A DNA stretch of 55,040 nt, taken from NCBI GenBank assembly GCA_016342715.1, contig JAEINW010000009.1, positions 1-55,040 on the forward strand, read 5' to 3'. The position numbers and the translations under genes are program-made. The first letter of the stretch is position 1. Every line of letters starts with the position of its first letter. This stretch comes from Salinivirgaceae bacterium (GTDB lineage Bacteria > Bacteroidota > Bacteroidia > Bacteroidales > SZUA-534). This document shows positions 20,914-46,141 of the stretch, one piece after another. Below the pieces are notes generated by a model that saw only the letters and a program-made list of their open reading frames with translations, ran no database searches and had not been told where the DNA came from.

Positions 20914-21102
20914 GTATATCGGGCATGTTTATTACCAGTAAGGATAAAACAAGGTTCGTATTCAAAAGGAAAACTTTAAAAATGAAAAATATTGAAAGAG
21001 GCTGAAGCAGTATTGGATTAAAGTTTTAAATAAAATCATTCAAATTTTGGAATCTTGAAATGGGTTGTAATAGTTTATTGTAACTTTAAACAAAAAAAAA
21101 CT

Positions 21103-21870
21103 ATGAATACAAATTTGGCTGTTTTAATTGATGGCGATAATATTCCTTCAAAGTATTTAAAGGAAATGTTGGAGGAAATTGCAAAGTATGGAAATCCTAC
21201 CATTAAGCGAATTTATGGCGATTGGACCAAACCGAACCTAAGCAAATGGAAAAATATTTTGCTTGAAAATGCCATAACACCCATTCAACAATATGGCTAT
21301 ACTACTGGGAAAAATGCGACTGATTCCGCTATGATTATTGATGCCATGGATATTTTGTATTCGGAAAAAGTAAATGGTTTTTGTTTGGTTTCAAGTGATA
21401 GCGATTTTACTCGTTTGGCTACCCGCTTGCGTGAGGCAGGCATGGTGGTTTATGGGATAGGAGAGAAGAAAACTCCCGATCCATTTATTGTGGCTTGTAA
21501 TAAGTTTATTTATCTGGAAATTTTACATAATTTATCGGAAAACGATGAAACAGAATTACCGGGAAATGAAAACCTAGTAACTGCTACCTATGATAAAATT
21601 ACCCCTAAGGTTATCCGATTAATTTCGGCAACTATTGCCGATTTAGCTGACGATGATGGTTGGGCTTTTTTAGGTGATGTGGGTGGTATGTTGCAAAAGA
21701 AACAGCCTAATTTTGATTCAAGAAACTACGGTTTCCAGAAATTAACACCCATGATTCAATCCATCGATAAATTTGAGATTGAACTTCGCGAAAGCGTACG
21801 TGGACGGTCGAAATTAATTTTTGTAAAGAACAAAGAGAAAAAACGCTTTATCAGAGGCAAGAAGAATTAA
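21103..21870 (+). CDS. NYN-domain (LabA/DUF88) putative RNase with OST-HTH/LOTUS C-terminus
   Basis: 255 residues from ATG 21103; an ATG-like start 48 nt upstream adds residues that look non-coding. The NYN (PIN-like) domain spans about 5-145 with the acidic residues of the active site in AVLIDGDNIP, DSAMIIDAMDI and VSSDSDFTRLATRL. The C-terminal 75 residues (WAFLGDVGGMLQKKQPNFDS, then FQKLTPMIQSIDKFEI) match the OST-HTH/LOTUS RNA-binding fold. The NYN plus LOTUS arrangement is known from bacterial proteins thought to act on RNA, possibly RNase-like. Cytoplasmic. Confidence 0.88.
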   Translation: MNTNLAVLIDGDNIPSKYLKEMLEEIAKYGNPTIKRIYGDWTKPNLSKWKNILLENAITPIQQYGYTTGKNATDSAMIIDAMDILYSEKVNGFCLVSSDSDFTRLATRLREAGMVVYGIGEKKTPDPFIVACNKFIYLEILHNLSENDETELPGNENLVTATYDKITPKVIRLISATIADLADDDGWAFLGDVGGMLQKKQPNFDSRNYGFQKLTPMIQSIDKFEIELRESVRGRSKLIFVKNKEKKRFIRGKKN

Positions 21871-24938: not shown

Positions 24939-27278
24939 ATGATACTATTTTTTAAAAAAACAATACTATTTTCAATATTCTTTTCTTCTTTTCTTTTGGT
25001 AAATAGCCAAACAAAAATTGATTCGCTTTATAATGAATTGCAAAATGCCAAACATGATTCAATTAGAGGTAAGATATTTTCTAAAATAGGTTTTGAACAC
25101 CAAAAGTTAAAACCAGATTCAGCAATTTATTATTATAACGAAGCTGTTAAAATACTTGAAACTGGTTCGCAGCAAAAAGAACTTGTTGCTGCTCTTGTTA
25201 ATTTGGGTAAGAGTTATGGCAAGGTTGGTTATTTAGATAAATCACTTGAATTTACTGAAAGAGCTTTAGTAGAGGCCACAAAAATAAATGATTCAACATC
25301 AATCGCCAATAGTTTAAAAAATATTGGAATAATAAACTATTATCAAGGTGATTTTGTCGCAGCAATGTTTTATTACCATAAGTCTTTAGATATAAATAAG
25401 CTCATGAATGATAAAAATGGGATTGCCCAAAGTTTAAATAATATTGGTGTACTATACGATTTACAAGGAATTTATGATACTGCCATTGTTTTTTATGATG
25501 AAGCAATTGTACTTTTTTTAGAGAGTAATGATTCCACATCAGCTGCTTCTGTATATGTTAATTTAGGTAGCATTTTTAGCGAAAAAGGCAATTACAACAA
25601 AGCTTTTAATATGTACGAAAATGCAATTGCAATTTATGTTAAGTCTGGCAATGTGAATGAAGAGGCTATTTGTTACAGAGCCATAGCTATGCTTTACATT
25701 GCCAAATCATCTTATATAAAAGCTTTAGAAAATATTCAAAGAGCTACAGCAAAATATGAAAGTATAAATAGCTTGAAGGGTGTTGCATATTGTTACGGAA
25801 TCATTGGGGAGATTCAAGAAATTCAAGGATCATATAATGAAGCAATTAGTTATTACAAAAAAGCACTTGAAATAAATAAAGAGGTGGGCGATATTAATGA
25901 AATGGCTTATTCGTTTCGAAATATTGCTAACGGTTTTCAAGCGCTTGGAAATAACAATTTAGCGGTTCAAAATTTTGAGGAATCACTCAAATTATTTAAG
26001 CAAATCAACTTAAAAGTTGGTATGGCAAAATGTTATCTTGATTTAGGAGTTCTATTTCAAAGGCAAAACCTTATACAAAAAGCCCTTAAATATAAAATAA
26101 TGGCGCTAAATTTATTTAATGAGCTCGATAATAAAAAAGAAATAGCAATTGTCTCAGGAAGTTTATCAAGTTCATATATAGATATGTATAAGTTTGAAGG
26201 TGCTTTGGAATACCTTAATAAAGCTAAAAAACATGCACTTAAATCGTTAAGTATAGCTCGTGAATTTGAATTGCCTTCTGAAGAAATGGAAGCTTTAAAA
26301 TATTTGTCACTCATTTACGAAGAATCAAACAAAATGAGCAAAGCTCTTGAATGCTACAAATCTTACACAAGCATTAAGGATACATTATTTAATAAGGAAA
26401 AACAAAAAACCTTATCTGAACTTGAAATAAAATACCAAACCAAACAAAAGGAACACGAGATTTCAATATTAAACCAGAAAAATCTGGAAAACGAATTAAT
26501 TATTAATAAAGAAAAGCTTCAAAAAGCACGTAGCTTATCTTTATTAATACTTATCTCAATTTTGGCTCTTATTATAATCTTGTCATTGATTTATCGCTCA
26601 CAAAAAAGAAAAAGATTAGTTAAAGAAAAAGAAGAAAAATTAATTCAAGATGCTAAAATTGAAATAGAACAAATAACTAAAGATAAAAATGCTGAATTAA
26701 TAAAATCATTGGATAGGGAAATGAAAAATATTTCGCAAGAAATTCATGATGGAATCCTTAGTGATTTAACAGGTATTCAGTTTTTAATAAAAAATAAAGA
26801 AAAAAAATCGAAAGACCTAAAGATTAACAAGGCATCTGATTATTTAAAAAAGTCAATCGATAAATTGCGTAATATATCGCATCAGTTAAACACACCTGAA
26901 TTTGAATATAACACCCTTGAAATAGCTATTGAAAGCTATTTAGAGCAATATAAGTCAGGTGAATTAAACATCGATTTTAACTATAATTTAACTAACAATA
27001 TTGATGACTTAATGCAGGTAAGTATTTACCGAATTATTCAGGAAGGTGTTAAAAATATATTCAAACATTCAAATGGTTCAAATTGCGATGTTCTGCTTGA
27101 AGACAAAAAAGAATACGTTAGATTACTGATTAAGGACAACGGTATTTCGGATAAAATAAATAAGAACGGTTTGGGATTATCTAACATTGAAGAAAGAGTT
27201 AGAAGCATGAATGGAAGAATGCAAATTAATAATTCCAACGGATTTGAAATAAACATTGAATTGCCTTTGGTTGGGTAA
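24939..27278 (+). CDS. TPR sensor histidine kinase (HisKA_3 / LuxR-system type)
   Basis: 779 residues. Signal peptide (about 1-24), then roughly nine TPRs in the periplasm (about 35-480; with LNNIGVLYDLQGIYDTAIVF and AISYYKKALEINKEVGD), a coiled segment, one transmembrane helix (about 532-553) and a cytoplasmic kinase. The HisKA_3 phosphoacceptor is H603 (QEIHDGILSDLTG). The HATPase N box is near 698-712 (IQEGVKNIFKHSNG) and the G box is NGLGLSNIEERVRSMNG near 743. This is the NarX/DegS-like class common in Bacteroidota, sensing through TPRs. The cognate regulator follows 13 nt downstream. Confidence 0.92.
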   Translation: MILFFKKTILFSIFFSSFLLVNSQTKIDSLYNELQNAKHDSIRGKIFSKIGFEHQKLKPDSAIYYYNEAVKILETGSQQKELVAALVNLGKSYGKVGYLDKSLEFTERALVEATKINDSTSIANSLKNIGIINYYQGDFVAAMFYYHKSLDINKLMNDKNGIAQSLNNIGVLYDLQGIYDTAIVFYDEAIVLFLESNDSTSAASVYVNLGSIFSEKGNYNKAFNMYENAIAIYVKSGNVNEEAICYRAIAMLYIAKSSYIKALENIQRATAKYESINSLKGVAYCYGIIGEIQEIQGSYNEAISYYKKALEINKEVGDINEMAYSFRNIANGFQALGNNNLAVQNFEESLKLFKQINLKVGMAKCYLDLGVLFQRQNLIQKALKYKIMALNLFNELDNKKEIAIVSGSLSSSYIDMYKFEGALEYLNKAKKHALKSLSIAREFELPSEEMEALKYLSLIYEESNKMSKALECYKSYTSIKDTLFNKEKQKTLSELEIKYQTKQKEHEISILNQKNLENELIINKEKLQKARSLSLLILISILALIIILSLIYRSQKRKRLVKEKEEKLIQDAKIEIEQITKDKNAELIKSLDREMKNISQEIHDGILSDLTGIQFLIKNKEKKSKDLKINKASDYLKKSIDKLRNISHQLNTPEFEYNTLEIAIESYLEQYKSGELNIDFNYNLTNNIDDLMQVSIYRIIQEGVKNIFKHSNGSNCDVLLEDKKEYVRLLIKDNGISDKINKNGLGLSNIEERVRSMNGRMQINNSNGFEINIELPLVG

Positions 27279-27291
27279 AACATAATTGGCC

Positions 27292-27909
27292 ATGATTAAA
27301 AAAAAATACATTTACCTTATCGATGATCATGATATGATTTTGGCTGGTTTACAAACCATGCTTACAGGAGTTGTGAGTTTGCCAATACTAGCATTTACCT
27401 CACCAAAAGATGCTTTGCTTTCGCTAAAAAGCAAAGCTGGCGAACTTATTATACTTGATTTATCGATGGATGAAATGCATGGATATAAATTTATTGAAGA
27501 AAGTAGAAAAATAGGAAAAAATAAAATTATTGTATTCACAAGTCATGGTGAGGTATGGAACGTTGGCAAACTACTTAATTTTAATATTAATGGTATTGTA
27601 CACAAAAACGATTTGATGGATGAAATTGAATATGCTGTACATGAAGTGCTTGAAGGAAATAACTATTATAGCCCATTAATTGAGAATACAATAAAGCTTT
27701 TAAACAAGGAAAACATTAATCATCTTGCTACCCGAGAAACAGAAATTCTGACATTAAGTGCTGTAGGTTTTGTGGCAAAAGAAATAGCTACAAAACTTGA
27801 AATTAGTCCGAATACAGTATCTACTACTCACAAAAAGATCTGCTCAAAATTAGAGGCTTTAAATATTACTCATGCTGTTAAAATTGCTAAAGACAGAGGA
27901 TACATTTAA
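27292..27909 (+). CDS. NarL/FixJ-type response regulator
   Basis: 205 residues from ATG 27292 (a TTG at 27286 is in frame). Receiver domain about 1-125 with the acidic pair D12-D13 (YLIDDHD) and phosphoacceptor D56 (ILDLSMDEMHGY); LuxR-type HTH about 145-205 (LATRETEILTLSAVGFVAKE, SPNTVSTTHKKICSKL). It forms a two-component pair with the TPR kinase. Its HTH is closely similar to that of the next small protein, and the two probably bind the same palindrome (27954, 28286). Confidence 0.93.
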   Translation: MIKKKYIYLIDDHDMILAGLQTMLTGVVSLPILAFTSPKDALLSLKSKAGELIILDLSMDEMHGYKFIEESRKIGKNKIIVFTSHGEVWNVGKLLNFNINGIVHKNDLMDEIEYAVHEVLEGNNYYSPLIENTIKLLNKENINHLATRETEILTLSAVGFVAKEIATKLEISPNTVSTTHKKICSKLEALNITHAVKIAKDRGYI

Positions 27910-27953
27910 AAATACTTTAATATTTATTTCAGATAACAATTATTTTCAAAAAA

Positions 27954-27977
27954 GCAATACCCCAATTTGGGTATTGC
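27954..27977. promoter_or_regulatory. candidate operator, copy 1 (24-bp palindrome)
   Basis: GCAATACCC (27954-27962) and GGGTATTGC (27969-27977) are perfect 9-bp arms with the centre CAATTT. Twenty of the 24 positions match the second copy at 28286-28309. It lies just downstream of the response regulator gene and 50 nt before the solo HTH gene at 28028. NarL-type regulators bind such inverted repeats as dimers, which makes local regulation likely. Confidence 0.6.
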
Positions 27978-28027
27978 AGCAGCTTTATATTAGTGCAAAT
28001 TTTGAAGCTTTAAACAAAAGAGCTTTA

Positions 28028-28246
28028 ATGATTAAAAAAGAAACATCCACTTTACTTACTCAGCGTGAAAAACAAATACTCGAGCTAATAAGCAATGGCT
28101 ATGTTGCCAAACAAGCTGCTGAAAAACTGTGCTTAAGTACAAATACCATTGAAACTGTCAAGAAAAATATTTGCCAAAAGCTGAAAGCTAAAAATACCCC
28201 ACACGCTATAAAGATTGCTTTAAAATCGGGCGACCTGATTTTTTAA
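28028..28246 (+). CDS. solo LuxR-type HTH regulator
   Basis: 72 residues from ATG 28028: IKKETSTLLTQREKQILELI, VAKQAAEKLCLSTNTIETVK, ICQKLKAKNTPHAIKIALKSG. It is essentially a bare GerE/LuxR HTH of about 65 residues without a receiver. The frame remains open upstream to 27872, but that would overlap the previous gene and the operator palindrome, so the shorter form is chosen. It resembles the HTH of the response regulator and looks like a truncated duplicate that keeps the DNA-binding part. It may compete for or share the same operator. Confidence 0.75.
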   Translation: MIKKETSTLLTQREKQILELISNGYVAKQAAEKLCLSTNTIETVKKNICQKLKAKNTPHAIKIALKSGDLIF

Positions 28247-28285
28247 AAATCAGCCCTTCATCTATTAACATTATTTTCCAATTAA

Positions 28286-28309
28286 ACAATACACAAATTT
28301 GGGTATTTC
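28286..28309. promoter_or_regulatory. candidate operator, copy 2, before the surface-protein operon
   Basis: ACAATACACAAA (28286-28297) and TTTGGGTATTTC (28298-28309) pair at 9 of 12 positions, and 20 of 24 positions match the copy at 27954. A near-consensus -7 box (AATCTTTG, 28329-28336) follows, so the site would lie at about -35 to -58, an activator position. The next ATG is 28368. Confidence 0.6.
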
Positions 28310-28367
28310 AAAGGGAAAGTGAAATGCTAATCTTTGGATTATAATTAATGACATTAAAATTAGAAAT

Positions 28368-29048
28368 ATGAAAAAATTTACAATCATTCTATTGGCGTTA
28401 ACTTTAGGGATAGGTATTTGTACCGAAATGTCAGCACAAAAGTATAAAACCGTTGAAAAAAGTGGTCGACGTTATCATTGGTTAAAATGGACTGGAGGTA
28501 AAATATATAAAGCTGAGAAAAGAGCAGAACGAAATGAATCTTTGGACAAAGGTGAGGAAGTAGTATATTTTGTTGTAAAAGCTGAAGAACTTGCTTATTA
28601 CAAGAATGAATCAGGTGAGTATGGATATAAAGTAAATGACATGCAAGATGTTCTTGATTTTAATGTAAGTAAAACAATTGCAGGAATAATCTTATCAAAC
28701 TTTGAAAGCAGCATAGATAAAGGTACTAAAATAGGAGAGGGTGCGCGAAGAACAGAAATACATACAAGCATAGGTACATTAAAGAAAAAAGTAACAGTTA
28801 GTGGAATTTTACCTATAAAAGAGCACTGGGAAAAAGTGATATATAAAAATGATGATAAAAAAGAAACGAAAATAAAAATGGCTCGTGTTTATTCCATGAA
28901 TAAAAATGACTTAGAAGTTATCTTGCAAAAAGCCTCAAAACATGTAGGCTTAACGTCTGGGGAATCAAACGCAGTAAGCGAAAATTTGTTTGATAGTATG
29001 GAAGAAGGCAATCCTGAAGAAGAAACTAATGAAGAAATTAACTGGTAA
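28368..29048 (+). CDS. hypothetical exported protein, first gene of the surface operon
   Basis: 226 residues with a signal peptide (about 1-24, ending CTEMSAQ). The sequence is basic and charged (YKTVEKSGRRYHWLKWTGG), with a middle part that reads like a single beta/alpha domain and an acidic C-terminus (EEGNPEEETNEEINW). I do not recognise a family. The next gene starts 12 nt downstream, and the lipoprotein gene follows, so the three are probably cotranscribed from the promoter behind the operator at 28286. Confidence 0.6.
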   Translation: MKKFTIILLALTLGIGICTEMSAQKYKTVEKSGRRYHWLKWTGGKIYKAEKRAERNESLDKGEEVVYFVVKAEELAYYKNESGEYGYKVNDMQDVLDFNVSKTIAGIILSNFESSIDKGTKIGEGARRTEIHTSIGTLKKKVTVSGILPIKEHWEKVIYKNDDKKETKIKMARVYSMNKNDLEVILQKASKHVGLTSGESNAVSENLFDSMEEGNPEEETNEEINW

Positions 29049-29060
29049 TCACTTTTTGAT

Positions 29061-29867
29061 ATGAGATTAAAGAATTATACTATAAGTGCAATATTGTTAT
29101 TTATTGCGATTAGTAGTTTTGCCCAAATGCCTAATTGGGTAAAACGAGGTACTCCCAATTCAACTAGTGGTAAATATTACTATGCCATGGGGCAAGGTAA
29201 AACTTTAGAAGAAGCAGTATACACAACCGTTAAAAGCGGTGCTAAATTGCAGGGTTTTACTGCAATAACCGATCAAAGCCTTGAGCGGAGCCTAAAAATT
29301 CAGAACAATAAACGAACTACTAAGCACAATTCTTTAGGAACTGTAAGCTTTGAAGATAAAAAGGTTAATATTTTTATTGCAGAACAATATTTTGATTATT
29401 CCAACAATGTTTATCATGTTTTGATAGGTTTTAGCAAAAATGAAAATATTCAATCTCCACTTAAACCTTTAGCATGTAATACAAATGCAATATGGCGCTC
29501 GGCAATAGTACCTGGATGGGGGCAGTTTTATAAAAAACAATCTCTAAAAGGAGGAGTGATTATTGGTAGTTTCGCGGCGCTTGCAGGATCAAGCATCTAT
29601 TTTGAAAACAAACGAACATATAATAGCGACCGAATTCAAGAAACAACCAACATAACTATTGCCAAAGAGTATAAAAGCAGGGCAGATAATTATGCCACTT
29701 ATCGCAATGTATCAATAATAGGGGCTTTGGGTGTATATGTATTCAATATTATTGATGCTGCTGCATCTAAAGGAAACTTATATGCTGATAATAAATCCCG
29801 CAACTGGGAACTGTATGCCGATAATTTTAACAATCAAACAACGTTAGGTGTTTCAATAAAATTTTAA
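29061..29867 (+). CDS. exported protein with LPP20-like N-terminus and DUF5683-like C-terminus
   Basis: 268 residues. Signal peptide ends at about residue 21 (SSFAQ). The N-terminal part (MPNWVKRGTPNSTSGKYYYA, then GKTLEEAVYTTVKSGAKLQG) resembles LPP20/FlgT-type domains of envelope proteins. The C-terminal part (AIWRSAIVPGWGQFYKKQSL, two hydrophobic segments) resembles DUF5683, a membrane-associated domain of Bacteroidota. Both assignments are by pattern. The lipoprotein gene begins four bases after the stop. Confidence 0.6.
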   Translation: MRLKNYTISAILLFIAISSFAQMPNWVKRGTPNSTSGKYYYAMGQGKTLEEAVYTTVKSGAKLQGFTAITDQSLERSLKIQNNKRTTKHNSLGTVSFEDKKVNIFIAEQYFDYSNNVYHVLIGFSKNENIQSPLKPLACNTNAIWRSAIVPGWGQFYKKQSLKGGVIIGSFAALAGSSIYFENKRTYNSDRIQETTNITIAKEYKSRADNYATYRNVSIIGALGVYVFNIIDAAASKGNLYADNKSRNWELYADNFNNQTTLGVSIKF

Positions 29868-29871
29868 ACGA

Positions 29872-32800
29872 ATGATTAAACAAATAAAACCTTTTTTGCT
29901 AATTGTTAGCTTAATAACTAGCATCCTTTTTACTTTTATTACATGTCAGGAAGATGATCCTTTAATAGTAACTGGCAATATTGAAGGTGCTGTTAAAAAC
30001 AATGAAAGCAACGAATCATTATCTGATGTTAAAGTTACTTTACAAAGCACAGGTCAAACTACTTCTTCAGGCCAATCAATACTTACCGGAACCAGTGGAA
30101 ATTATACATATAAGGATATTGAAGCAGGAGCATATTCGCTAATATTTGAAAAAAATGGATTTGAAAGCAACAACATCAACTTAACTGTTATTGCAGGAAA
30201 ATCAGTTAGCGGAGATGTATCTTTAATACCTATACAACCAGAGCTTGAGATATCTGTAACAAGTCTTGATTTTGGCTCCAACGAGAATTCACTTCCAGTT
30301 GCAATTACTAATAATGGAAAGGGATCTTTAGAATGGTCAATAGCTGAAAGTGTTGAGTGGCTTTCTGTAAATCCAGTTTCAGGAAAAGTAACCACTGATG
30401 TTAATAATATTGTTATCACGGTTAACAGATCAGGCTTAGAACAGGGTAACTACCAGCAATCTATTTCAATAGTTTCAAATGGAGGTAATGCAACCATTAG
30501 TGTTATTATGAAAGTTGAAGGCGGAGCATTAGCTGTGTTTCCAAACGATATATCTATTGCTGCAGATGCATCTACGGCATCGTTCCAAATTACAAATTCA
30601 GGAACTGAAGCTATAACATATACAGTTTCATCAAACAATACATGGCTTAAAACAGATCAAACAACCGGCACAATCGACAATGAAATTGATTTAGTGAATA
30701 TAACTGTTGATAGGACCGGAATAGAATATGGTGTGCATAAGGGGATGATTTTAATAACATCAAGTGAAAATTCCGTAATTGTAAATGTTACCCTAACAGT
30801 TGCCGACCCAAATGTTCCTTTGTTAAGTTTATCAGCGTACAATATTAATTTTGGTTCTAATGAAACTGAAAAAATACTAATCCTGTCAAATGCAGGTGGT
30901 GCAAGTTTAAGCTGGAGTGTAATAAACAATATTCAATGGCTCAATTTGCCTCTTAACTCAGGTACGCTTGATCCTAACTCTGGTGAAGAATTACAGTTAA
31001 CCATTGATCGTTCTATTTTGGCACCTGGACATTACGAAGGACAATTGCAATTTTCCTCAAATGGCGGCAATACCCCTGTTGATGTTATTATGGATGTAGA
31101 AGCTACCCCTATTTTATCGTACAACCCGACGGAATTAAATTTTACGACCTCAAATGCATCACAAAGTTTTGAAATCTCAAATACGGGTAACGGCGAAATA
31201 AATTGGAATTTGGAAAAAAACAAAGATTGGATCTCTCTTTCGCCAACTTCTGGTAATAATCAAGGTACCGTAAATGTTACTATTGATTATTCGCAATTGG
31301 AATTCGGGGAGTACAGTGGGCAAATTACCATAAAAACTGACAATGCCGGAGACGGTATTGTTTATATTCATGCCAATAATCCGCAACCTAGTGCTCCAAC
31401 TGTTACAATAAGTGCAGCCACTAACATTACAACAAATGCTGCCGATATTACAGGCAATATAACCTCATTGGGTTCAAAAACAAAAAATAATAATGCTTCA
31501 AGAACCTATGCTAACAATTCATTATATTCAACTAATTCCAACAATTATTTCCCTACCCTAAAAGGATCAAAAAACGTAATCCAATATGGTCATTGTTGGT
31601 CAACATCACAAAATCCAACTGTTGACGACTTTAAAACAAATTTAGGATCAACTTCTGAACTAATTGACTTTCAAAGCTTATTATCTGATCTAACTCCAAA
31701 TACAACTTATTATGTACGTGCATATGCCATAAATGCTGAGGGAACTGCATATAGCTCGCAAATTAGTTTTAATACTGAGGAAGAATACGTAGCTGCACCC
31801 GAAGTTGAAACGGGTGAAATAAGCAATATTGAAACTACTACAGTTAGTATATCCGGGAATATTATTTCCGTTGGTTCATCAAATGTAATTCAACATGGAC
31901 ATTGCTGGTCTTTAACTCAAAACCCAACAACATCTAATTATAAATCAGCCCTAGGTTCAACTTCTGAAGTTGGTGTATTTTCAAGCTCAATAGCTAATTT
32001 AACTCCCAATACAACCTATTATTCACGTGCTTATGCTACTAATGAAGAAGGAACTTCTTATGGATCACAAATAAGTTTTACAAGCAATGAAGAGTATATA
32101 GCTCCACCTGAAGTTACAACTATGGAAACTCAAAATATTACTTCAAATGCTGCCGATATTACGGGGAATATAATTTCCATAGGATCGTCAAGTGTTATAA
32201 CTTACGGACATTGCTGGTCAACAAGTGCAAATCCAACCGTAAATAATGAGACAACAAATTTAGGGGTAAGTTCACAACCTACTGAATATATTAGTTTAAT
32301 AACTAATTTAACCCAAAATACCACCTACTATGTTCGGGCATATGCAATCAATAGCGAAGGTACAGCGTACAGTGAGCAGGTAAGCTTTAATACGGTTGAA
32401 CTATCAGTTGACATAACTGCACCTACCAACTCAACACAATGGACAGCAGGCGACACTGAAACTATTTTATGGGACGATAACTTTAGTGATTATGTTAATA
32501 TTGAGTTATATAAAAGTAATATTTTCCAAATATCTATTAGCTCATCAACAGTAAGCAACGGATCATTTGTTTGGAATATTCCTATGGATTTACAAGAAGG
32601 TAGCGATTATAAAATTAAAATAACAAGTACTGCAAATTCATCAGTTTCTGATTATAGCGATAATTTTTCGATTTTAGCCATGGATGAGTATGGTAATGGT
32701 GCCGACGGAGTATTTACTGGTGGAGAATTAAACCGCAATAGAGATTACTATTTTTCTGAAATTAATATGCAAAGTGGTGCTGTAATGAATTTTACCGGTG

Positions 32801-33570
32801 AAGGCAATGGAGGCATTTATGTACAAGGTAACTTTACACTGGCTACTGGAGCTACAATAAATATGCGCAAAGGCGAAAATTTAAATGCTGGAGATTTTAC
32901 TTTTAAAGGATACTCCCGCAGTCTAGGCGAAGGCAATGTGACTCCAGGTGCTGCAGGTACTGGTGGTAATGGAACAACAGGTAGTGGATACACAGGTGGT
33001 GCTGGTGGTAATGGAGGGTACGATAATAACGAAGGTAATAATGGAGGTGCCGGAGGAACAACACTCCAATGCACTGCCAGTGGAGGCTCTGGTGGTAATT
33101 TTCCATCAAATGATGGCAGTAATGGTTCACAGTGTACTTATGGAACCTACACCTGGGGCGGAGGCGGCGGAGGCGGTGCTGCCGGATCAAATGGATTAAG
33201 TGCTGAAAAAGTAGCTTTTGTGGTTGCCGGAAATGTATCGCTTCAAGGAATCATAAATGGGAAAGGTAGTGATGGAACAAATGGCGGTAATGGTGGTAAT
33301 GGAGCATATAGTAAAATGCGCGGTACCGGAGGCGGTGGCGGTGGCGGCGGTGGAGCCGGTGGCAATGGAGGTGCTGTTTACATTTTCACAAAAGGTAGTT
33401 TTACTAACAATGCTACAACAATTCTTAGTGGTGGCAGCGCTGGAGCCGGTGGTACGGGTGGAACAAAAGGAAGCGTAGCTACAAGCTATCCTGAAGGTGC
33501 CTATGGTTCTGATGGTTCGTCCGGTATCAATGGTAGCAATGGCATAATAGAACGCATTCAAACTAACTAA
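29872..33570 (+). CDS. giant lipoprotein: CarboxypepD_reg, BACON and FN3-like repeats, Gly-rich C-terminus
   Basis: 1232 residues. A type II signal peptide ends FTFITC with the lipidated C25; the following QEDD resembles the acidic export signal that sends lipoproteins to the cell surface in Bacteroidota. Then: CarboxypepD_reg-like domain (35-115), four BACON repeats (about 123-503; e.g. LEISVTSLDFGS, NKDWISLSPTSGN), three FN3-like repeats (504-846; each with GHCWS and AYA(I/T)N motifs), a Kre9-like Ser/Thr-rich module (846-930, TAPTNSTQWTAGDTETILWD), and a Gly/Asn-rich tail (from 1024, many GGNGG/GGAGG units) to the end. The first FN3-like repeat carries an insert absent from the other two. 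A surface adhesin or matrix protein is the best inference. Confidence 0.8.
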   Translation: MIKQIKPFLLIVSLITSILFTFITCQEDDPLIVTGNIEGAVKNNESNESLSDVKVTLQSTGQTTSSGQSILTGTSGNYTYKDIEAGAYSLIFEKNGFESNNINLTVIAGKSVSGDVSLIPIQPELEISVTSLDFGSNENSLPVAITNNGKGSLEWSIAESVEWLSVNPVSGKVTTDVNNIVITVNRSGLEQGNYQQSISIVSNGGNATISVIMKVEGGALAVFPNDISIAADASTASFQITNSGTEAITYTVSSNNTWLKTDQTTGTIDNEIDLVNITVDRTGIEYGVHKGMILITSSENSVIVNVTLTVADPNVPLLSLSAYNINFGSNETEKILILSNAGGASLSWSVINNIQWLNLPLNSGTLDPNSGEELQLTIDRSILAPGHYEGQLQFSSNGGNTPVDVIMDVEATPILSYNPTELNFTTSNASQSFEISNTGNGEINWNLEKNKDWISLSPTSGNNQGTVNVTIDYSQLEFGEYSGQITIKTDNAGDGIVYIHANNPQPSAPTVTISAATNITTNAADITGNITSLGSKTKNNNASRTYANNSLYSTNSNNYFPTLKGSKNVIQYGHCWSTSQNPTVDDFKTNLGSTSELIDFQSLLSDLTPNTTYYVRAYAINAEGTAYSSQISFNTEEEYVAAPEVETGEISNIETTTVSISGNIISVGSSNVIQHGHCWSLTQNPTTSNYKSALGSTSEVGVFSSSIANLTPNTTYYSRAYATNEEGTSYGSQISFTSNEEYIAPPEVTTMETQNITSNAADITGNIISIGSSSVITYGHCWSTSANPTVNNETTNLGVSSQPTEYISLITNLTQNTTYYVRAYAINSEGTAYSEQVSFNTVELSVDITAPTNSTQWTAGDTETILWDDNFSDYVNIELYKSNIFQISISSSTVSNGSFVWNIPMDLQEGSDYKIKITSTANSSVSDYSDNFSILAMDEYGNGADGVFTGGELNRNRDYYFSEINMQSGAVMNFTGEGNGGIYVQGNFTLATGATINMRKGENLNAGDFTFKGYSRSLGEGNVTPGAAGTGGNGTTGSGYTGGAGGNGGYDNNEGNNGGAGGTTLQCTASGGSGGNFPSNDGSNGSQCTYGTYTWGGGGGGGAAGSNGLSAEKVAFVVAGNVSLQGIINGKGSDGTNGGNGGNGAYSKMRGTGGGGGGGGGAGGNGGAVYIFTKGSFTNNATTILSGGSAGAGGTGGTKGSVATSYPEGAYGSDGSSGINGSNGIIERIQTN

Positions 33571-33610
33571 CAATAATTTTAGCATATCGCTAATTATAAC
33601 ACCAAAGTAA

Positions 33611-33660
33611 AACGCTGCGTGCTATTAATATATGCGCAGGGTTTGCTTTTAAATTTTTTT
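33611..33660 (+). terminator. terminator after the giant lipoprotein gene
   Basis: AACGCTGCG (33611-33619) pairs with CGCAGGGTT (33635-33643) at 8 of 9 positions, followed by a T-rich tract to 33660. It separates the lipoprotein operon from the transglutaminase-like gene at 33685. Confidence 0.6.
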
Positions 33661-33684
33661 AAATAAAATTCTTAAGCAATACTT

Positions 33685-35160
33685 GTGAAAAATATAATCT
33701 TCACCATACTTATATTTACAGTAATTGGCACTAATGGCCAATCGTTCGACGATTTTAAAAAGCAAACCGATGCTAAATTTACAAGCTTTAAAGATGCATC
33801 AAATGCAAAGTTTGAAGCTTTCAAAAAAGTGTCGTGGCAAAAGTTTGAAACCTTAAAACTTGAGCATTTTGCTTTTGAATCAAAACCATATGAAATTCCT
33901 GAAGCTCCTGTTCAAACCGATCCCATACCGCCCACACCTATATTTAATGAAGATATAGAACCCGTGGTGGTGCCCGATCCTTTGCCAAATAATGATATAA
34001 TATCCCGATTAGATCCTGAGTTTAAAAGCAACTTAATAAAAATTGCAGACTACTGCAATTACAAAGTCGAGGTCGATTATTTCGATGTTCCCATTCCATT
34101 TTATTATCATGAATTTAATTTTAAATTAGATTCAATAAATGGCATCCACTTTAACAAGGCTGTTAATCAGATTCAGAAATTTGATAAAGAAATTAATAAA
34201 ATAATTCTTTATCAACTTAAAAACTATGTTGCCCTTATGAAGCTAAATGACTGGGCTTTAATTCAGTTAGCATTTAAAACCGGACAAGCTGTTTTTAAAA
34301 ATGATAATAAAGCCAGAGTGTTTGCATGGGCAATGCTTAGTTTAATGAATTATGATTGCAAATTAGCTTTTACTCCCGAAGGGGTATTGGCAATTGTTGT
34401 ACAAGCAAATGCTGAATTGTGTTGGGAATATCGTCTAATCATAGACGAAAATGCTTACTTTTTTGCCACGCTTAGCAATGATGAATACCAATTAGTATTG
34501 GAACAATCAGTATATACCTACGATGAAAATCCGTTTAATGCAAGCGAGCCTTTTTCCATTCTTTTTGATAAGGCTCCAAGTATTAATACAAAACTAACTG
34601 AAAAAGCACGCAGCACCCGAACACATGAGTTCAATATGGCCTGTGATGTTAGTTATGTTAAAATGCTGGAAACTTTTCCAAAATTTTCACACGAAATATA
34701 TTACAGTATACCTCTCTCTGAAAAAACGCTGCAACATACACGCAAGCAAATAATGCCTTATATAAAAGGGAAAAGTGAATACGACGCCGTAAGCTTTATA
34801 CTAAATTTTGTTCAATTTGGTTTTCCTTACCAGTTCGACAAAATTCAGTTTGGAGTAGGTGATCGGCCACAGGCAGCAGAGGAACTTTTTTACTATCCGT
34901 ATAGCGATTGCGAAGACCACTCAGCGCTTTTTGCCCAATTGGTTAAAGAGTTTGTAGGAATTGAAGTGGCGGGCATTCTTTATAGAACTCATGCAACTAC
35001 TGCCGTTAAATTCTCTGGTCCTCAAAATTCAGGCGAACATTTACCTGCACCTTTTCAGGATTTTATTGTGTGCGATCCCACTTATATTGGTGCTGAAATA
35101 GGCTTAAGTATGCCTCAATTCAGAGGGGTTACTCCTGAAAAGATATGGAAGGTGAAATAA
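33685..35160 (+). CDS. exported transglutaminase-like protein (GTG start)
   Basis: 491 residues beginning at GTG 33685, which opens the signal peptide (M)KNIIFTILIFTVIG. Residues 20-70 are charged and coiled. The triad is C409 (YSDCEDHS), H436 (YRTHATTAV) and D464 (FIVCDPT), the same order as in the paralogue at 13585 (C412, H439, D466). It lacks that paralogue's propeller-like C-terminus and ends soon after the triad (LSMPQFRGVTPEKIWKVK). Probably a periplasmic or surface enzyme modifying or processing proteins, possibly the giant proteins encoded on either side; that link is inference. Confidence 0.75.
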   Translation: MKNIIFTILIFTVIGTNGQSFDDFKKQTDAKFTSFKDASNAKFEAFKKVSWQKFETLKLEHFAFESKPYEIPEAPVQTDPIPPTPIFNEDIEPVVVPDPLPNNDIISRLDPEFKSNLIKIADYCNYKVEVDYFDVPIPFYYHEFNFKLDSINGIHFNKAVNQIQKFDKEINKIILYQLKNYVALMKLNDWALIQLAFKTGQAVFKNDNKARVFAWAMLSLMNYDCKLAFTPEGVLAIVVQANAELCWEYRLIIDENAYFFATLSNDEYQLVLEQSVYTYDENPFNASEPFSILFDKAPSINTKLTEKARSTRTHEFNMACDVSYVKMLETFPKFSHEIYYSIPLSEKTLQHTRKQIMPYIKGKSEYDAVSFILNFVQFGFPYQFDKIQFGVGDRPQAAEELFYYPYSDCEDHSALFAQLVKEFVGIEVAGILYRTHATTAVKFSGPQNSGEHLPAPFQDFIVCDPTYIGAEIGLSMPQFRGVTPEKIWKVK

Positions 35161-35389
35161 GCTACATTTTTCTGTCAGTTATTTTATTAAAAGTTATATG
35201 AAAAGATTCTTGATATTAAGCATAATTATTTTCCAAGAAATCAATGAGTTGAGGAAGATTGAATAAAAAACTTCAAAAAATCACTGTATTTACGGGAACT
35301 TTTGAAGCATTTATTACGTAAATTCGAGGGATTCTAACAATAAGTAAGCACTATTTTATTTTCTCACAAAGTAGTATTAAATAAAAAAA

Positions 35390-38300
35390 ATGAGAACTAA
35401 TTATTCTCACATTAGTATTCTTATGGCAAAAAAGAACAGTTATTCAAAACTTTTTAAAATATCTCTTATTGGTATTTTACTATTGAGTGTTATTCCTAGT
35501 TTGTTTGGTAAAACTCCAACAGTTAATTTAATTTATCCTAATAGCGAAACATTTTCAGTTGGGCAAACCATAAATTTTCAATGGAGTTCAACCAATCAGA
35601 ACCACTATGGAATTTATTTATACAAGGGTGGAACCACTGAAAGTCATCAAATATCTCGGATTAATATAACCAATGGTAATAACGATTATGGTGTTCAGAG
35701 TTATTCTTGGACAATTACAGAAACGGTATTAGATGAACCTGGTGTAAATACCTACACCCTTAATGGTGATGATTACAAATTTAAAATTGTGATTTGGGAT
35801 ACCGATGATGCTGCAACTGCAACTCCGATTGGCGATTTCAGTTCTAGTTATATCACCATAAATCCAAAACCTATTGTTACCGATGTAAGTCCTTCAGATG
35901 CTATTCTAGGGGAATCTGAAACATTTACAATTTCAGGAACTAACCTAAACAACGATATGGTATATTATATTGACAATTTTGGTTCGGGAACTGTAGATGC
36001 GAGTAGTTACTCGACTTATAAAAAGTTTACCATAGCATCCAGTGATAATTGTGGAATAAAGTATGGTGAGATAAAAATGGAATCGGGTGGAGAAGTTTTA
36101 AAAGATTTTGAAGTAGCAGTTTACTTTCCCATTCCATCAAATTTTACAGCTACTGCTAATGGTACCTCTCAAATTGATTTAAGTTGGAGCAGCGTTTCAA
36201 ATGCCTATCAATACAAATTATATCGAGCAAATTCGTCAAATGGAATAAAAACAAATATTTACACAGGATCAAATAATTCATATAGCAATGTTTCATTAAG
36301 CGAGAATACAACTTACTATTATTGGGTGCAGGCCTGTCAAGCAGGGAATCAGAATTCTTGCTCAAGTCAATCAGCTTACGAAAGTGCCACAACGGGTCAA
36401 GCGGTAAGTAATCATGCGCCCGATAATCCTTCATTCCGACCTTTGCCTAGTGGTTTTCAGTACACGGTTAATGCTGCTTCAAGCATTCCAATTAAGAGCA
36501 GTTCCGATCAAGATGGCGACCAAACCAAAGTTCATATGTGGTGTGCAAATTCAGCGAATCCTCAAAATAATCAATATATCTCGTCGTACAGCACTTCTGT
36601 GCAAAATTACAATCTTCCAATAACTTTTACAGTTTCGGGTGATCAAACGGTATATATTCAATCTTTTGATATTAATGGAGCAAGCAGTGATATCATTCAT
36701 CATATTTATTCTATTCAAGAAGAAAATACCGATGAAAATCCATTAGTTGCTTCATTTATAAGTTTTCCAGATCAGGCTACTGAAAATCAGTCACTTGATT
36801 TTACAGTACAATCAGGAACCGATCCGAATAACGACCAGACGAAAGTAATGGTGTGGGCTAGTCATTCAAATTACACAGAAGCAAGTGCCTATGCAACTGC
36901 TTTTGCTAATGGCGGGCAACAATTCACCATTCCTTTAACTTTTTCTCAGGAAGGAACCGAAACGGTTTATTGCCAAACCATGGACGAAGATGGTAATGTG
37001 AGTTCGATTACAAGTCGTTCGATAAGTGTAATCAGTGGAACATCAGAAATAACCGAAGTTCAAATAGCTTACTTAACCTTAACAGCTGCAAATATTGTTG
37101 AAACTTCATCAAATATATTCTCACTAAGCGGAAATGTAATAGCCAACGACATTATTCAATTTACAGGAACTGTGGTTGCCGATTTAAATGATTTACGTAT
37201 TTCGGGAAATGGTAGGGTTTATTTATCGAACATACCAAATTTTAATACCGATGTTGACCTTTACAATGGTTCATTTGAATACGATATACCCAATAATTCC
37301 TCGGAATTAATAGCCGTTGGGCTAGATGAGGCAAATGAGCTATTAACCATGGCAAATCTGCCAGTTTATATCGATCGTATTTCACTTTTAAGCGATGGGA
37401 TAAATATTACAGGGAATGTAGAATTTCCTTATTTGTTGGGTTATGCAAGAGCCGAAGTTACGGAGCTTCAGATTACAAAATCGAAGGGTTTGGAACTGGT
37501 AGGCGAAATGGAAATTAATGAAATTCAGGCTTCAGGCTTTAAGCTTAAGGAAATGAAATTTGCCTTTAATACCATAACAGATGAGTTTTCGGGCAATGGA
37601 AAAATTGAAACAGCTTTATTTAAAGCAGGAGCAAATATTAGTATTTTAAGTACGGGTATCGATGAAATAGGTATGTTTCTTAGTTTAAGCAATCCTTATC
37701 CTCTAGGTACAACTGGATTGGCATTGTCAGGATTAACTGGAAATATTTCAAACATTCAGTCGCATCCAAATCCACCCATGATTATAACTTTTGGAACCAG
37801 TTTAACTGCAGTTGGAACGCCTCCTGAGGTTTTGGAATTAAAAGATGTTTCTCTGACTTATCAGTTTGGAACCAGTTTGAGTGGAAATGGAACCTTTAAA
37901 GTGTTAGGAAAAGAAACTGCAAGCGCTGGTTTTGAAGTTCGCGAAGGGCTTTTTAAAATTTATGCAGAAGTGAATTTTTATGATGTAATAAATGCAGCCA
38001 TCGAAGCTGGTATTGTTGCAAACGAGAATAACAGTGTGGATGTTTTTGCCAAATTTTCGGCTTCCATGCAATTGCCCGATGGCGAAGGATTCCCTTACAG
38101 CTGGATAGACCCGTTTGTTAGCCTGCCTTATACCTTTGCCAATTTTGAAAATATCTTGTATAATACGGAATTATCGGGAAAAGGGATGGTCGATATTTTT
38201 ATTTTTGATGCAGAATTCAGTTACCTATTAACTTATTCTAATGGAGTAATTCATAAGGAATTTGCAAAAAATTATAGCTTATTTACAGGCAAAGTGTTTA

Positions 38301-39793
38301 TTGGAAAAGAAAACAAAGCGCTAAAATTTGAAACTCCATCAAAGAGTTTGTCTGACTGGAATAGCCCTGAATACAATCGATTTGAGGGACAAAGCTTGAT
38401 CATTGACCCTAAGGATTATAGCGATTCAAAAAATGCCAAAGGTGAAATCATTCAGGATTTTATACTTTCAGGTAGCGTTGAAACACTGGTGGTTAGAGTA
38501 GAACTGGAATCAGGTGATCCAAAGCCAGAATATTCCATTACAACACCTTCGGGATTACTTGTTAATGCTGATAATATAAATGAGTTTGAAGATTATAGTT
38601 ATTCAGTAAATAATGACAATAATGGTGTTTACTATACAATCAACAATGCTGAAGCGGGAGCATGGATACTAACTTTAATTGACAATGGTAAAACGCAGTT
38701 TGCCGATATCTTTGGAACCGAAGATGAGCCCGGAATCATTATAAATGGCATTCAAAAAACAGGAAACGACGTAGCAGTTTCATGGGTGGATGATAATCCA
38801 AATTTTGATGGACAAATTTCATTGTATTACGATTATAACAACAGCGGAATTGATGGGTCATTAATAGTTTCGGGCCTAAGTGAAAACGACGAGACAGATT
38901 CCTTTACGTTTGATGTTACTGGTTTTAGCCCCGGCGAATATTATGTTTATGCCATAATGTTCGACGAAAATGGGGTTCCTGTAACTAGTTATAGCAATGA
39001 ACCTTTTGTAGTACAGGGTAATATATCAGCACCCACAAATTTGGTTTATTCCTTAAATACTCAGAACAATATTGAACTTGATTGGGAGCTGATAGCTGAT
39101 GGAAACGATTATGAATATATGTTGTATTACGAAAAGGAAGGTGAAGTTTCTTTTGGTTCACAAAATATTAATACTGGTAATAATAGTAGTTCATATACAT
39201 TTTCAACTTCAGATGAGGCCTATGCTTATCAGTTTATGGTAGTTGCTAAAAATGCAAATGGTGAATTAGGGCAGGCTTCTAATTGGATAGCCATAGATTT
39301 AGCCAGACATCAAACCATAGAATTGAATCAGGGCTGGAACTTAATCGGATTAAGCATTGAGCCTACCGATCCTTCAATTTCAAAAACTTTTGAGTCCTTA
39401 AGTGATAAATTACTTCAAATTAAGGATGAAACAAAATCGTATGATCCGAATTTGCCTGATTACCTGAATACATTGGAGAATGTTGAAAATGGAAAAGGTT
39501 ATTGGATAAAATTAAGTGAGGCTGGCCAATTAACAAGTAGAGGTAAGGGAATAGAATTGTTAGATTTTGAAATAGCCTTGCACGAAGGTTGGAATTTAAT
39601 AAGTTATCCCGCTCAATATTCAAAGGATATCGAACAAGCTTTAGTAAGTATTTCGGGAAAAATTGTTCAGGTTAAGAATGTTGAAAATTCTTACGATCCT
39701 TTATTGCCCGAGCATTTAAATACGCTCAAAGAATTAAAACCTGGTGAAGGTTATTGGATAAATGTTAATCAAGATTGTGTTTTAACCTTCTAA
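35390..39793 (+). CDS. giant exported multidomain protein with tandem C-terminal repeats
   Basis: 1467 residues (ATG 35423 gives a shorter signal peptide, MAKKNSYSKLFKISLIGILL). Visible modules in order: a Kre9-like Ser/Thr-rich domain (TVNLIYPNSETFSVGQTINF), an IPT/TIG-like segment (VTDVSPSDAILGESETFTIS), an FN3 domain (NFTATANGTSQIDLSWSSVS), two similar Ig-like repeats, and a long central beta-rich stretch with SGNGRVYLSN/GNGKIETALF motifs. There are two tandem C-terminal repeats of about 78 residues, each with a GWNLI motif and a GYWI motif (LNQGWNLIGLSI; LHEGWNLISYPA). No T9SS tail is seen, so export beyond the inner membrane is unclear. First gene of an operon; 12 nt to the next. Confidence 0.7.
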   Translation: MRTNYSHISILMAKKNSYSKLFKISLIGILLLSVIPSLFGKTPTVNLIYPNSETFSVGQTINFQWSSTNQNHYGIYLYKGGTTESHQISRINITNGNNDYGVQSYSWTITETVLDEPGVNTYTLNGDDYKFKIVIWDTDDAATATPIGDFSSSYITINPKPIVTDVSPSDAILGESETFTISGTNLNNDMVYYIDNFGSGTVDASSYSTYKKFTIASSDNCGIKYGEIKMESGGEVLKDFEVAVYFPIPSNFTATANGTSQIDLSWSSVSNAYQYKLYRANSSNGIKTNIYTGSNNSYSNVSLSENTTYYYWVQACQAGNQNSCSSQSAYESATTGQAVSNHAPDNPSFRPLPSGFQYTVNAASSIPIKSSSDQDGDQTKVHMWCANSANPQNNQYISSYSTSVQNYNLPITFTVSGDQTVYIQSFDINGASSDIIHHIYSIQEENTDENPLVASFISFPDQATENQSLDFTVQSGTDPNNDQTKVMVWASHSNYTEASAYATAFANGGQQFTIPLTFSQEGTETVYCQTMDEDGNVSSITSRSISVISGTSEITEVQIAYLTLTAANIVETSSNIFSLSGNVIANDIIQFTGTVVADLNDLRISGNGRVYLSNIPNFNTDVDLYNGSFEYDIPNNSSELIAVGLDEANELLTMANLPVYIDRISLLSDGINITGNVEFPYLLGYARAEVTELQITKSKGLELVGEMEINEIQASGFKLKEMKFAFNTITDEFSGNGKIETALFKAGANISILSTGIDEIGMFLSLSNPYPLGTTGLALSGLTGNISNIQSHPNPPMIITFGTSLTAVGTPPEVLELKDVSLTYQFGTSLSGNGTFKVLGKETASAGFEVREGLFKIYAEVNFYDVINAAIEAGIVANENNSVDVFAKFSASMQLPDGEGFPYSWIDPFVSLPYTFANFENILYNTELSGKGMVDIFIFDAEFSYLLTYSNGVIHKEFAKNYSLFTGKVFIGKENKALKFETPSKSLSDWNSPEYNRFEGQSLIIDPKDYSDSKNAKGEIIQDFILSGSVETLVVRVELESGDPKPEYSITTPSGLLVNADNINEFEDYSYSVNNDNNGVYYTINNAEAGAWILTLIDNGKTQFADIFGTEDEPGIIINGIQKTGNDVAVSWVDDNPNFDGQISLYYDYNNSGIDGSLIVSGLSENDETDSFTFDVTGFSPGEYYVYAIMFDENGVPVTSYSNEPFVVQGNISAPTNLVYSLNTQNNIELDWELIADGNDYEYMLYYEKEGEVSFGSQNINTGNNSSSYTFSTSDEAYAYQFMVVAKNANGELGQASNWIAIDLARHQTIELNQGWNLIGLSIEPTDPSISKTFESLSDKLLQIKDETKSYDPNLPDYLNTLENVENGKGYWIKLSEAGQLTSRGKGIELLDFEIALHEGWNLISYPAQYSKDIEQALVSISGKIVQVKNVENSYDPLLPEHLNTLKELKPGEGYWINVNQDCVLTF

Positions 39794-39805
39794 TTTTAAA
39801 GTCTT

Positions 39806-44068: not shown

Positions 44069-44090
44069 AAAATGTATTGATTTTTATAAG

Positions 44091-45053
44091 ATGACTTTAA
44101 AATACCTTTTGCTTGCTTCTATATTATTTATAGTACTATTTATAAATGATATAGAAGCTTCATATGTTTCTTTATATTCTTCGGATACCACAATAACCGT
44201 TAAAAACTGCATAAAAGAAACAACCATTAGCAATGGAAGTAAAACATCAACCCAAAAGGAGTTCTTAGATTGCTTTTGGGAAACAGGAACTGATACCATT
44301 ATTAGTATTGAAAATTGCCTTAAAACTACAAAGATCTCAAAATTGGGCTATGAACGAACAATAACAGAAAAATTACCCTGTTTTTGGGACGATGCAACAA
44401 TAACTGCGGACACCTTTTTATTACCAGGCCATAATGGTAAATGGAGACTCAATATTAATACCCGATATGAGAAAAATGGTGAAACAAAAACAGGATGGTC
44501 GTCAGATGGAATTTTTGAACAAGAGGCTTATCGAGCTGGTTTAGATACGGTAGCTAAAATTAAATATTCATCATCGCATCCTGTATTTAAACAATATGTG
44601 TATTACGAACAGTATAAGGATGAGGTTTTTTCAAAGCGGGACACAAGCATAGATATCGAGCTAATGCTTAAAAATGTGAATGAATTAAGAGCTGATGGAT
44701 GTAAGTGTGGTAGTAAAATTATGTATGGCACAACTCCCTTAAAGTGGAGCTCAAAACTTGAGCAAGTTGCTTTTTTATATGCAAAAGATATGTACGAAAG
44801 AGATTTTTATAGCCATACTTCTCCCGAAGGTGAAGGCCCTGGTGATCGTTTGGCTAAACAGAAAATAGAAGCAAGTTGTGGTGAAAACATAGCTCAAGGT
44901 CAAATGAATGGTGAAAAAGCCTTTCGAGCTTGGATAGAAAGTCCTGGGCACTGTGAAAATATGATGTTAAGCAGGTACACATATATTGGAGTTGCAAAAT
45001 ATATGGATAGATATTGTATGTTGTTAACTACTCAAATAAAAACAAAGCAATAG
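44091..45053 (+). CDS. exported CAP-domain (SCP/PR-1-like) protein
   Basis: 320 residues from ATG 44091 (upstream in-frame start is inside the previous gene). Signal peptide about 1-23. Residues 35-63 and 72-99 are two copies of a Cys-containing repeat (KNCIKETTIS ... LDCFWETGTDT; ENCLKTTKIS ... LPCFWDD). The CAP domain covers about 190-320: LKWSSKLEQVAFLYAKDMYE, FYSHTSPEGEGPGDRL, GENIAQG, AWIESPGHCENMM. The His and Glu of the CAP cavity are present. CAP proteins bind lipids or act in adhesion or proteolysis in various organisms; the role here is not known. Confidence 0.85.
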   Translation: MTLKYLLLASILFIVLFINDIEASYVSLYSSDTTITVKNCIKETTISNGSKTSTQKEFLDCFWETGTDTIISIENCLKTTKISKLGYERTITEKLPCFWDDATITADTFLLPGHNGKWRLNINTRYEKNGETKTGWSSDGIFEQEAYRAGLDTVAKIKYSSSHPVFKQYVYYEQYKDEVFSKRDTSIDIELMLKNVNELRADGCKCGSKIMYGTTPLKWSSKLEQVAFLYAKDMYERDFYSHTSPEGEGPGDRLAKQKIEASCGENIAQGQMNGEKAFRAWIESPGHCENMMLSRYTYIGVAKYMDRYCMLLTTQIKTKQ

Positions 45054-45715: not shown

Positions 45716-46050
45716 ACCTTCAAAATACCTGCTTTTATAAACGAATTTCAAGAAAATCATGCATAGAATGAAACACGGGAACTTGTTTTTTTTATTTGTT
45801 ATTAGTTTGCTTTGCTAACAAATATTGAAGCTTGCCAGAAATAAACGCTCTCTCTCCCAAGTTTCCACATTTTTTACCAAATTCGGGTTTGTAATAAACA
45901 TTAAGAGCTTTATAAAAAAGAAAATTTAGTATTAAAAAATTTACAAACGCTATTGTTAGTATCCATATTTTTTCTACACATTAAATTTTAATGTTTATAC
46001 GTATGGTTAGGTTTTTGTGCTTTATTATCCGCTATCTTTCCGTGTGTTGG
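45716..46050. other. intergenic region between surface operon and restriction module
   Basis: AT-rich, no gene and no clear terminator found. It marks the boundary between plus-strand surface genes and the minus-strand restriction-like module, and ends in the structured element at 46051-46134. Confidence 0.3.
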
Positions 46051-46134: not shown

Positions 46135-46141
46135 ATAGTTA

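Follow-up and report, generated by a model that had tools for sequence, protein, structure and literature searches.

FimS of Porphyromonas gingivalis is a membrane kinase with eight TPR motifs in its periplasmic domain, as described in the accessible part of PMC11053733. According to the available portion of PMC1974823, FimR binds directly to the promoter of the surface-protein gene mfa1 and activates it. Of the systems that have been studied, FimS/FimR comes closest to the locus described here in both layout and logic. The operators of NarL have a 7-2-7 arrangement in which two inverted heptamers, each starting with TAC, are 2 bp apart (consensus TACYYMT). GerE acts without a receiver domain. 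In the accessible text of PMC9263151, the isolated GerE-family domain of DegU can dimerize and bind operators, and that of LiaR shows 100-fold weaker binding than intact LiaR. LuxR-type regulators are abundant in the Bacteroidota, where 186 of 295 genomes matched the stand-alone HTH protein described below (hereafter, the solo) at E 1e-7. Few operators of these regulators were found described in the literature; among the matches listed, there was nothing on the dyad reported here, on its link to LuxR-type regulators of the Bacteroidota, on the residue-base match, or on a solo paired with flanking operators.

The window is the whole 55,040-nucleotide stretch of DNA that was analyzed, from a Salinivirgaceae bacterium. 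On its genes alone, the locus at its center resembles FimS/FimR in that a TPR kinase and a LuxR-type regulator adjoin surface-protein genes. The features are as follows.

24939-27278, plus strand: TPR sensor histidine kinase, 779 aa (Pfam TPR_12, 8.8e-45; HATPase_c, 7.3e-8)
27292-27909, plus strand: NarL/FixJ-type response regulator with Lys at the K192-like position (Pfam Response_reg, 1e-15; GerE, 1.8e-11)
27956-27975, plus strand: putative operator dyad of P1, AATACCCCAATTTGGGTATT, inner part of the first palindrome (repeat, shuffle, and genome scans; spacing to the −7 box)
27997-28004, plus strand: P1 −7-like box, AAATTTTG, one mismatch to TANNTTTG
28028-28246, plus strand: solo, a stand-alone GerE/LuxR-type HTH protein, 72 aa, with Lys at the K192-like position (GerE, 1.1e-14 for the longer ORF)
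28288-28307, plus strand: putative operator dyad of P2, AATACACAAATTTGGGTATT, inner part of the second palindrome (repeat, shuffle, and genome scans)
28329-28336, plus strand: P2 −7-like box, AATCTTTG, one mismatch to TANNTTTG, with the same spacing as in P1
28368-29048, plus strand: 226-aa exported protein outside any Pfam family, with which the presumed target operon begins
29061-29867, plus strand: exported protein, DUF5683 (Pfam)
29872-33570, plus strand: probable lipoprotein, 1232 aa, with BACON domains (Pfam; lipobox by eye)
33685-45715, plus strand: further genes (fn3, Por_Secre_tail/Big_5, CAP), for which cotranscription with the operon is only possible

By eye, the kinase starts with a signal-like stretch at its N terminus and has one further membrane segment, and the receiver of the regulator has the acidic pocket, the Asp, and the Lys. 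The regulator consists of a receiver domain followed by a GerE HTH, both above the Pfam cutoff, as in the NarL/FixJ class, and it matches the structures of VraR and NarL (1A04, 7.5e-13). The solo is a GerE domain alone by Pfam and matches the structures of GerE (1FSE, 9.5e-6) and FixJ (3.5e-8). Its most likely start is the ATG at 28028, giving 72 aa, and orthologous solos elsewhere have 63-83 aa; an alternative ORF of 124 aa begins inside the regulator gene and crosses the first palindrome. The core of P1 lies 46 nt past the regulator stop and 52 nt ahead of the solo ATG, and that of P2 lies 41 nt past the solo stop and 60 nt ahead of the next ATG. Fimbrial Pfam families were absent among the genes downstream of the solo. 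Elsewhere in the window, a 1004-aa protein with Eco57I/MmeI-like N6-methylase domains is encoded at 46785-49799 (minus strand) and an NYN and LOTUS-domain protein at 21055-21870 (plus strand).

An earlier sequence-only reading had reported two palindromes flanking the solo gene, and these were confirmed at 27954-27977 and 28286-28309, with 20 of 24 positions identical. They form the cores of a 45-nt direct repeat that is 78% identical and has a spacing of 332 nt. In the inner 20-mers 9 of 10 positions pair in both copies; the left half-site of copy 2 is damaged (TACAC) and its outer pairs are lost. The geometry is TACCCCA-AT-TTGGGTA for P1 and TACACAA-AT-TTGGGTA for P2, with inverted heptamers separated by 2 bp. 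Against TACYYMT the spacing fits, and the P1 halves match at 6 of 7 positions and the P2 left half at fewer. By their sequence, both palindromes are putative NarL-style dyads of the TACC...GGTA type. Comparison with other loci supports the proposal that they are NarL-type operators.

One hundred dinucleotide shuffles of the window gave an expectation of 0.03 matches to the pattern, and four strand-matches at two places were observed. In the 5.54-Mb host genome, matches with 0-1 mismatch were found only at these two places, so that a scatter over random positions was not seen. A single further place, on one strand within a 224-aa ORF, matched with 2 mismatches; at 3 mismatches there were 20 further rows, compared with 15 matches in total for a reversed control pattern. 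The dyad combined with the −7 box again gave only these two sites at up to 3 mismatches. The sequence AATCGCTCAATTTGGGTATT, which is 3 mismatches off the pattern, occurs five times in the host genome (C18:57, C34:9410, C50:3214, C89:4742, and C149:5879) and is, for this reason, probably a separate repeated element. Exact matches to the palindrome were absent from viral contigs.

The primary promoter of the Bacteroidota has TAnnTTTG at −7 and TTTG near −33, as given in the accessible part of PMC7366714. Relative to it, the −7-like boxes of P1 and P2 are at the expected place, each lacking the first T, whereas the −33 region is taken by the end of the dyad. The spacing was determined with 35 loci that had been selected solely by an exact palindrome, providing 70 strand-orientations, with offsets counted from the first T of the terminal TT of the dyad. 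An exact TANNTTTG was found at +23 in 7 of the 70 orientations and at +22 in 1, and the remaining 51 offsets gave a total of 4. In the window, AAATTTTG and AATCTTTG sit exactly at the +23-type position; a fixed distance between dyad and −7 box, as at class II sites, is thus present both in the window and in the set of loci. The activator-like position that the sequence-only reading had assigned to the palindromes is consistent with this constant spacing to the Bacteroidota −7 box that follows them. PM2, a near-palindromic motif at −10 and −30 in the accessible part of PMC7366714, is a different element from the dyad.

Comparison also supports the two proposed targets, with the P1 dyad probably controlling the solo gene and the P2 dyad the exported-protein operon. 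Autoregulation of the kinase and regulator genes, which had also been proposed, was not supported. Between the kinase and the preceding gene there were 0 dyads of this kind at up to 2 mismatches, so that the solo gene is the only one to which the term autoregulated could apply.

Of 393 genomes surveyed in the order, 13 contain the dyad alone with at most 1 mismatch, the host among them (control, 3 places). For the composite of dyad and −7 box at up to 3 mismatches, 88 of the 393 had matches, compared with 2 places for the reversed control; a second form of the composite matched 71 of 395 genomes of the class (control, 3 places). Among 58 composite loci, excluding the window's own, the dyad lay no more than 500 nt past the end of a same-strand GerE gene in 8, a GerE gene was present elsewhere in 3 kb in 5, and none was present in 45; at the gene-adjacent loci the next downstream gene often looked exported by eye. 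A GerE gene lay within the fetched stretch at 7 of 35 palindrome-only loci and was absent at 28. Because these 28 loci, and 26 of 32 places with a TACG dyad (see below), had no such gene, the dyads also occur away from GerE genes. For 68 GerE genes found by protein similarity, a near-perfect 20-bp dyad with a −7 box was found downstream in 0-1 cases, which is the background level at other offsets, and the dyads are therefore not general to LuxR-type genes.

Several other arrangements were encountered in these searches. In three genomes of the order (G292, G358, and G360; loci L078, L083, L084, and L089-L091), most dyad matches are part of an apparent dispersed repeat (AGAAATACCCAAATTTGGGGATTGAAAAG...) near gene ends. 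Several similar sites, AATACTC...GAGTATT, each with a −7 box, are present in G605, and several TACGTAGAACTGCGTA-like sites with a −7 box are present in each of G656 and G758; these suggest larger regulons of other regulators. At L220 (G295:C206) a GerE gene is followed by a TACC dyad with a −7 box and then by a pair of related exported proteins that have many NNTS/VSQNG repeats and are curlin-like by eye. An 88-aa GerE-like ORF lies 206 nt ahead of a dyad at L122. The stand-alone GerE ORF at L092 (86 aa) was considered as a further module and rejected; it was taken for a fragment, with neither an adjacent regulator nor a dyad seen beside it.

The DNA-only palindrome scan returned a regulator, a stand-alone HTH gene, and a dyad together at 2 of 35 loci, both in other Bacteroidota. 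L126, from a Sphingobacteriaceae MAG, has the order TPR kinase, regulator, P1, 83-aa solo, and P2; L128, from a Bacteroidia MAG, has TPR kinase (by eye), regulator, 63-aa solo, P2, and exported protein. Protein searches with these two solos in 17 and 24 family genomes, respectively, provided five more loci (L236, L237, L247, L250, and L258), in whose selection the dyad played no part. Of these five, L236 and L237 are related to L126 and L247 to L128, and L250 and L258 share a genus, so that the eight loci with regulator and solo represent four lineages, three besides that of the window. A dyad lies between regulator and solo in all eight (weak, with 2 mismatches, in L246, L247, and L250) and after the solo with 0-1 mismatch in seven. 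A dyad with TTTG at +44 to +46 from its first base precedes the solo in 7/8 and follows it in 5/8, compared with a dyad in 5 and a dyad with TTTG in 0 of 68 control genes; the pattern used for these counts accepts either C or G as the fourth base, which was decided once L258 had been seen. On these comparisons, regulator, solo, and putative operator dyads are kept together in three other lineages. The regulator of L250 is split across two frames, and the kinases of L258 and L250 are apparently of a different sensor type by eye.

A match to the window regulator above 34% identity was absent among 59 other genomes. A contig pattern search for an ortholog of the locus gave 132 matching stretches, of which 0 were confirmed. 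Searched against 295 genomes of the order, the solo HTH matched many regulator HTHs (32-54% identity among the matches listed), and no copy of the locus was among the solo matches listed.

A same-strand protein gene immediately after the solo was not seen at four loci (L235, L236, L237, and L250). The solo is followed there by a C-rich box (AAACTAA[AT]CCTAT-like) and then by a hairpin and a T run, at ~1814-1880 in L235 (a shorter match), ~60-110 nt past the solo stop on the reverse strand in L236 and L237, and ~2142-2190 in L250. These stretches had no Rfam match and are possibly a small RNA or the end of the solo mRNA.

NarL contacts bases through K188, V189, and K192. Both dyads of L258 and of L250 read TACG...CGTA rather than TACC, and the recognition-helix residue that aligns with K192 of NarL is the one place that separates the TACG from the TACC loci, with Asn or Gln instead of Lys in regulator and solo alike. 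The regulator and solo of the window both have the K192-like Lys. The HTHs of all fetched loci were clustered at 75%, and we chose as limits of adjacency 400 nt for sites after, 250 nt for sites before, and 250 nt for divergent sites, tolerating 2 mismatches in the −7 box. Lys was found in 18 of 19 HTH clusters beside TACC dyads, 2 of the 18 being the window proteins, and in none of the 10 clusters next to TACG dyads (4 with Glu, 3 with Gln, 2 with Asn, and 1 with Ser); related loci are included, so these counts are not independent. The background was 11 of 52 readable clusters (of 56), drawn from proteins similar to the window regulator or solo, which themselves both have Lys. Fisher's test gave p values of 5.5e-7 for TACC vs TACG and 1.7e-8 for TACC vs background. 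Counted per locus, Lys was found at 14 of 15 TACC and 0 of 8 TACG loci (p 1.8e-5; 1.2e-4 once four TACC loci with far or divergent sites were dropped). The sole TACC exception is L224, with Asp in a doubtful ORF.

For GerE proteins beside further TACG dyads, we predicted in advance the absence of Lys, which held, and the presence of Gln or Asn, which failed in that the new cases have Glu or Ser. These cases came from a search of 395 genomes of the class that was noisy at 2 mismatches, with well-filled control columns. Of 32 places fetched (30 at 0-1 mismatch), 6 had an adjacent GerE gene and 26 had none; the residue is Glu in five of the six and Ser in one. A Lys facing the G opposite C, and a Glu facing C opposite G, would be chemically sensible. 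In L050 and L054, TACT...AGTA dyads lie a few nt from divergent GerE gene starts, and Gln is the key residue of both clusters there, which may add a third letter to the residue code. In the accessible text of PMC9263151, Lys residues of the DegU recognition helix touch bases in a model. The residue numbered K192 in RcsB is too distant for a direct bond in the part of PMC5829831 that was available; such numbering is not transferable between proteins.

We estimate a probability of about 0.75 that regulator and solo read both putative operators, which would then be class-II-type sites bound by a dimer of a NarL/FixJ-type HTH. The suggestion that the bare HTH protein reads the same sites is favored by the shared K192-like Lys and by the dyads that flank solos elsewhere. 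The TPR kinase would phosphorylate the regulator, the dimer of which would bind and activate P1, leading to the solo, and P2, leading to the exported-protein operon. If transcription starts ~5 nt beyond the −7 box, the dyad center would be ~43 nt upstream, and the bound dimer would overlap the weak −33 region and aid polymerase at the −7 box. Once produced from P1, the solo would bind the same sites without phosphorylation, and it may come under its own loop because P1 would drive the solo and the solo would read P1. Comparison supports the dyads, the fixed −7 spacing, the recurrent layout of regulator, solo, and dyads, and the residue-base match as parts of this scheme; from them we infer binding, activation, and the direction in which the solo acts. 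Counting against the scheme are the damaged left half-site of P2, the missing first T of both −7 boxes, the lack of an ortholog of the locus in the searches above, the dyads that lie away from GerE genes, the failed Gln/Asn part of the prediction, and the L224 exception.

The sign of the solo divides two readings. It may be positive, the response being prolonged or latched by an HTH dimer that needs no phosphorylation, much as GerE acts without a receiver domain, and we give this about even odds. The solo may instead be a competitor that occupies P1 and P2 without activating and so shortens the response by negative feedback. Sharing the key residue and the flanking sites with the regulator would suit a competitor, and the 100-fold weaker binding of the isolated LiaR domain in the accessible text of PMC9263151 fits a modulator that is active only when abundant. 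P1, at an activator-like position, would drive the gene of the solo itself, which speaks against a competitor, as does the activation by stand-alone GerE in Bacillus. We lean slightly to the positive latch, with competition nearly as likely. The sites could also serve another Lys-type GerE protein of the genome, the neighboring pair being incidental; Lys is present in 2 of 9 other readable GerE proteins among those matched by the solo (L040 and L042). This is improbable given that both genomic sites are at this locus, that the pairing recurs elsewhere, and that half-site and residue vary together locally.

The solo and the second palindrome might also be functionless leftovers of a tandem duplication in which the HTH end of the regulator gene and the promoter downstream were copied. 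The top match of the solo in its own genome is indeed the adjoining regulator (48%, E 8e-13; next, 36%, 3e-7), the two are sisters in a tree of 97 HTHs from a short alignment (SH-aLRT 90.8, not starred; the regulator branch is long), and the DNA register is kept at offset 331 (47%, compared with a mean of 29% and sd of 3%). However, at least five HTHs of other genomes outscore the regulator against the solo, the flank without coding sequence and palindrome is nonsignificant (reached by 506 of 5000 shuffles), and dyads and solos recur in three other lineages. The three solos as a single clade gave a p-AU of 0.18, which neither rejects nor establishes that grouping. With matches, tree, and register on one side and scores and flank on the other, the evidence is mixed, and we did not accept duplication as the whole story, which is unlikely; local duplication is a plausible origin of the solo on these sequence comparisons, and it is compatible with function. 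Least probable of all is that the palindromes are RNA hairpins acting as terminators or attenuators. In favor of hairpins, copy 1 has a folding energy of −14.5 kcal/mol (z −3.1) and heads the list of terminator-like sites as a minus-strand entry, and a T run follows the palindrome in one locus (L082/L117). Copy 2, in contrast, folds no better than shuffles on the plus strand (−2.1, z +0.43; minus strand −7.2, z −2.2), a plus-strand T run is absent after both copies, and terminator-like sites in 27200-46200 are at the chance level (11 vs 10.6). There was also no Rfam match, and RNA elements leave the −7 spacing and the residue-base match unexplained.

Returning to regulator and solo as joint readers of the operators, we consider it probable, though with less confidence than the shared reading itself, that the locus represents a recurrent module of the Bacteroidota joined to a one-residue code at K192. 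In such a module, a regulator and a separately encoded bare HTH would share two class II operators, one for the solo and one for the output, and a signal written by phosphorylation would be held or cut by the bare-domain reader. The code would be Lys for TACC and Glu, Gln, Asn, or Ser for TACG, keeping regulator, solo, and operators matched in evolution. If this is true, operators beside some LuxR-type genes will be predictable from one residue, tiny HTH-only proteins will have a role that can be tested, that of second readers at shared sites, and there will be a natural case of a regulator, a small partner, and two operators that shift specificity together.

The accessible parts of PMC11053733 and PMC1974823 describe FimS/FimR without a stand-alone HTH partner or paired operators, unlike the window. 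Signal and targets differ as well, and the likeness is one of layout and not of a comparison of regulator sequences. The solo resembles GerE (PDB 1FSE, E 9.5e-6), the 74-aa chain of which is likewise an HTH domain alone. GerE is not known to be paired with an adjacent response regulator that reads the same site. The dyads of the window resemble the 7-2-7 operators of NarL in having inverted TAC heptamers 2 bp apart, but the center and the position-7 bases differ, and in the window each dyad has a Bacteroidota −7 box at a constant spacing.
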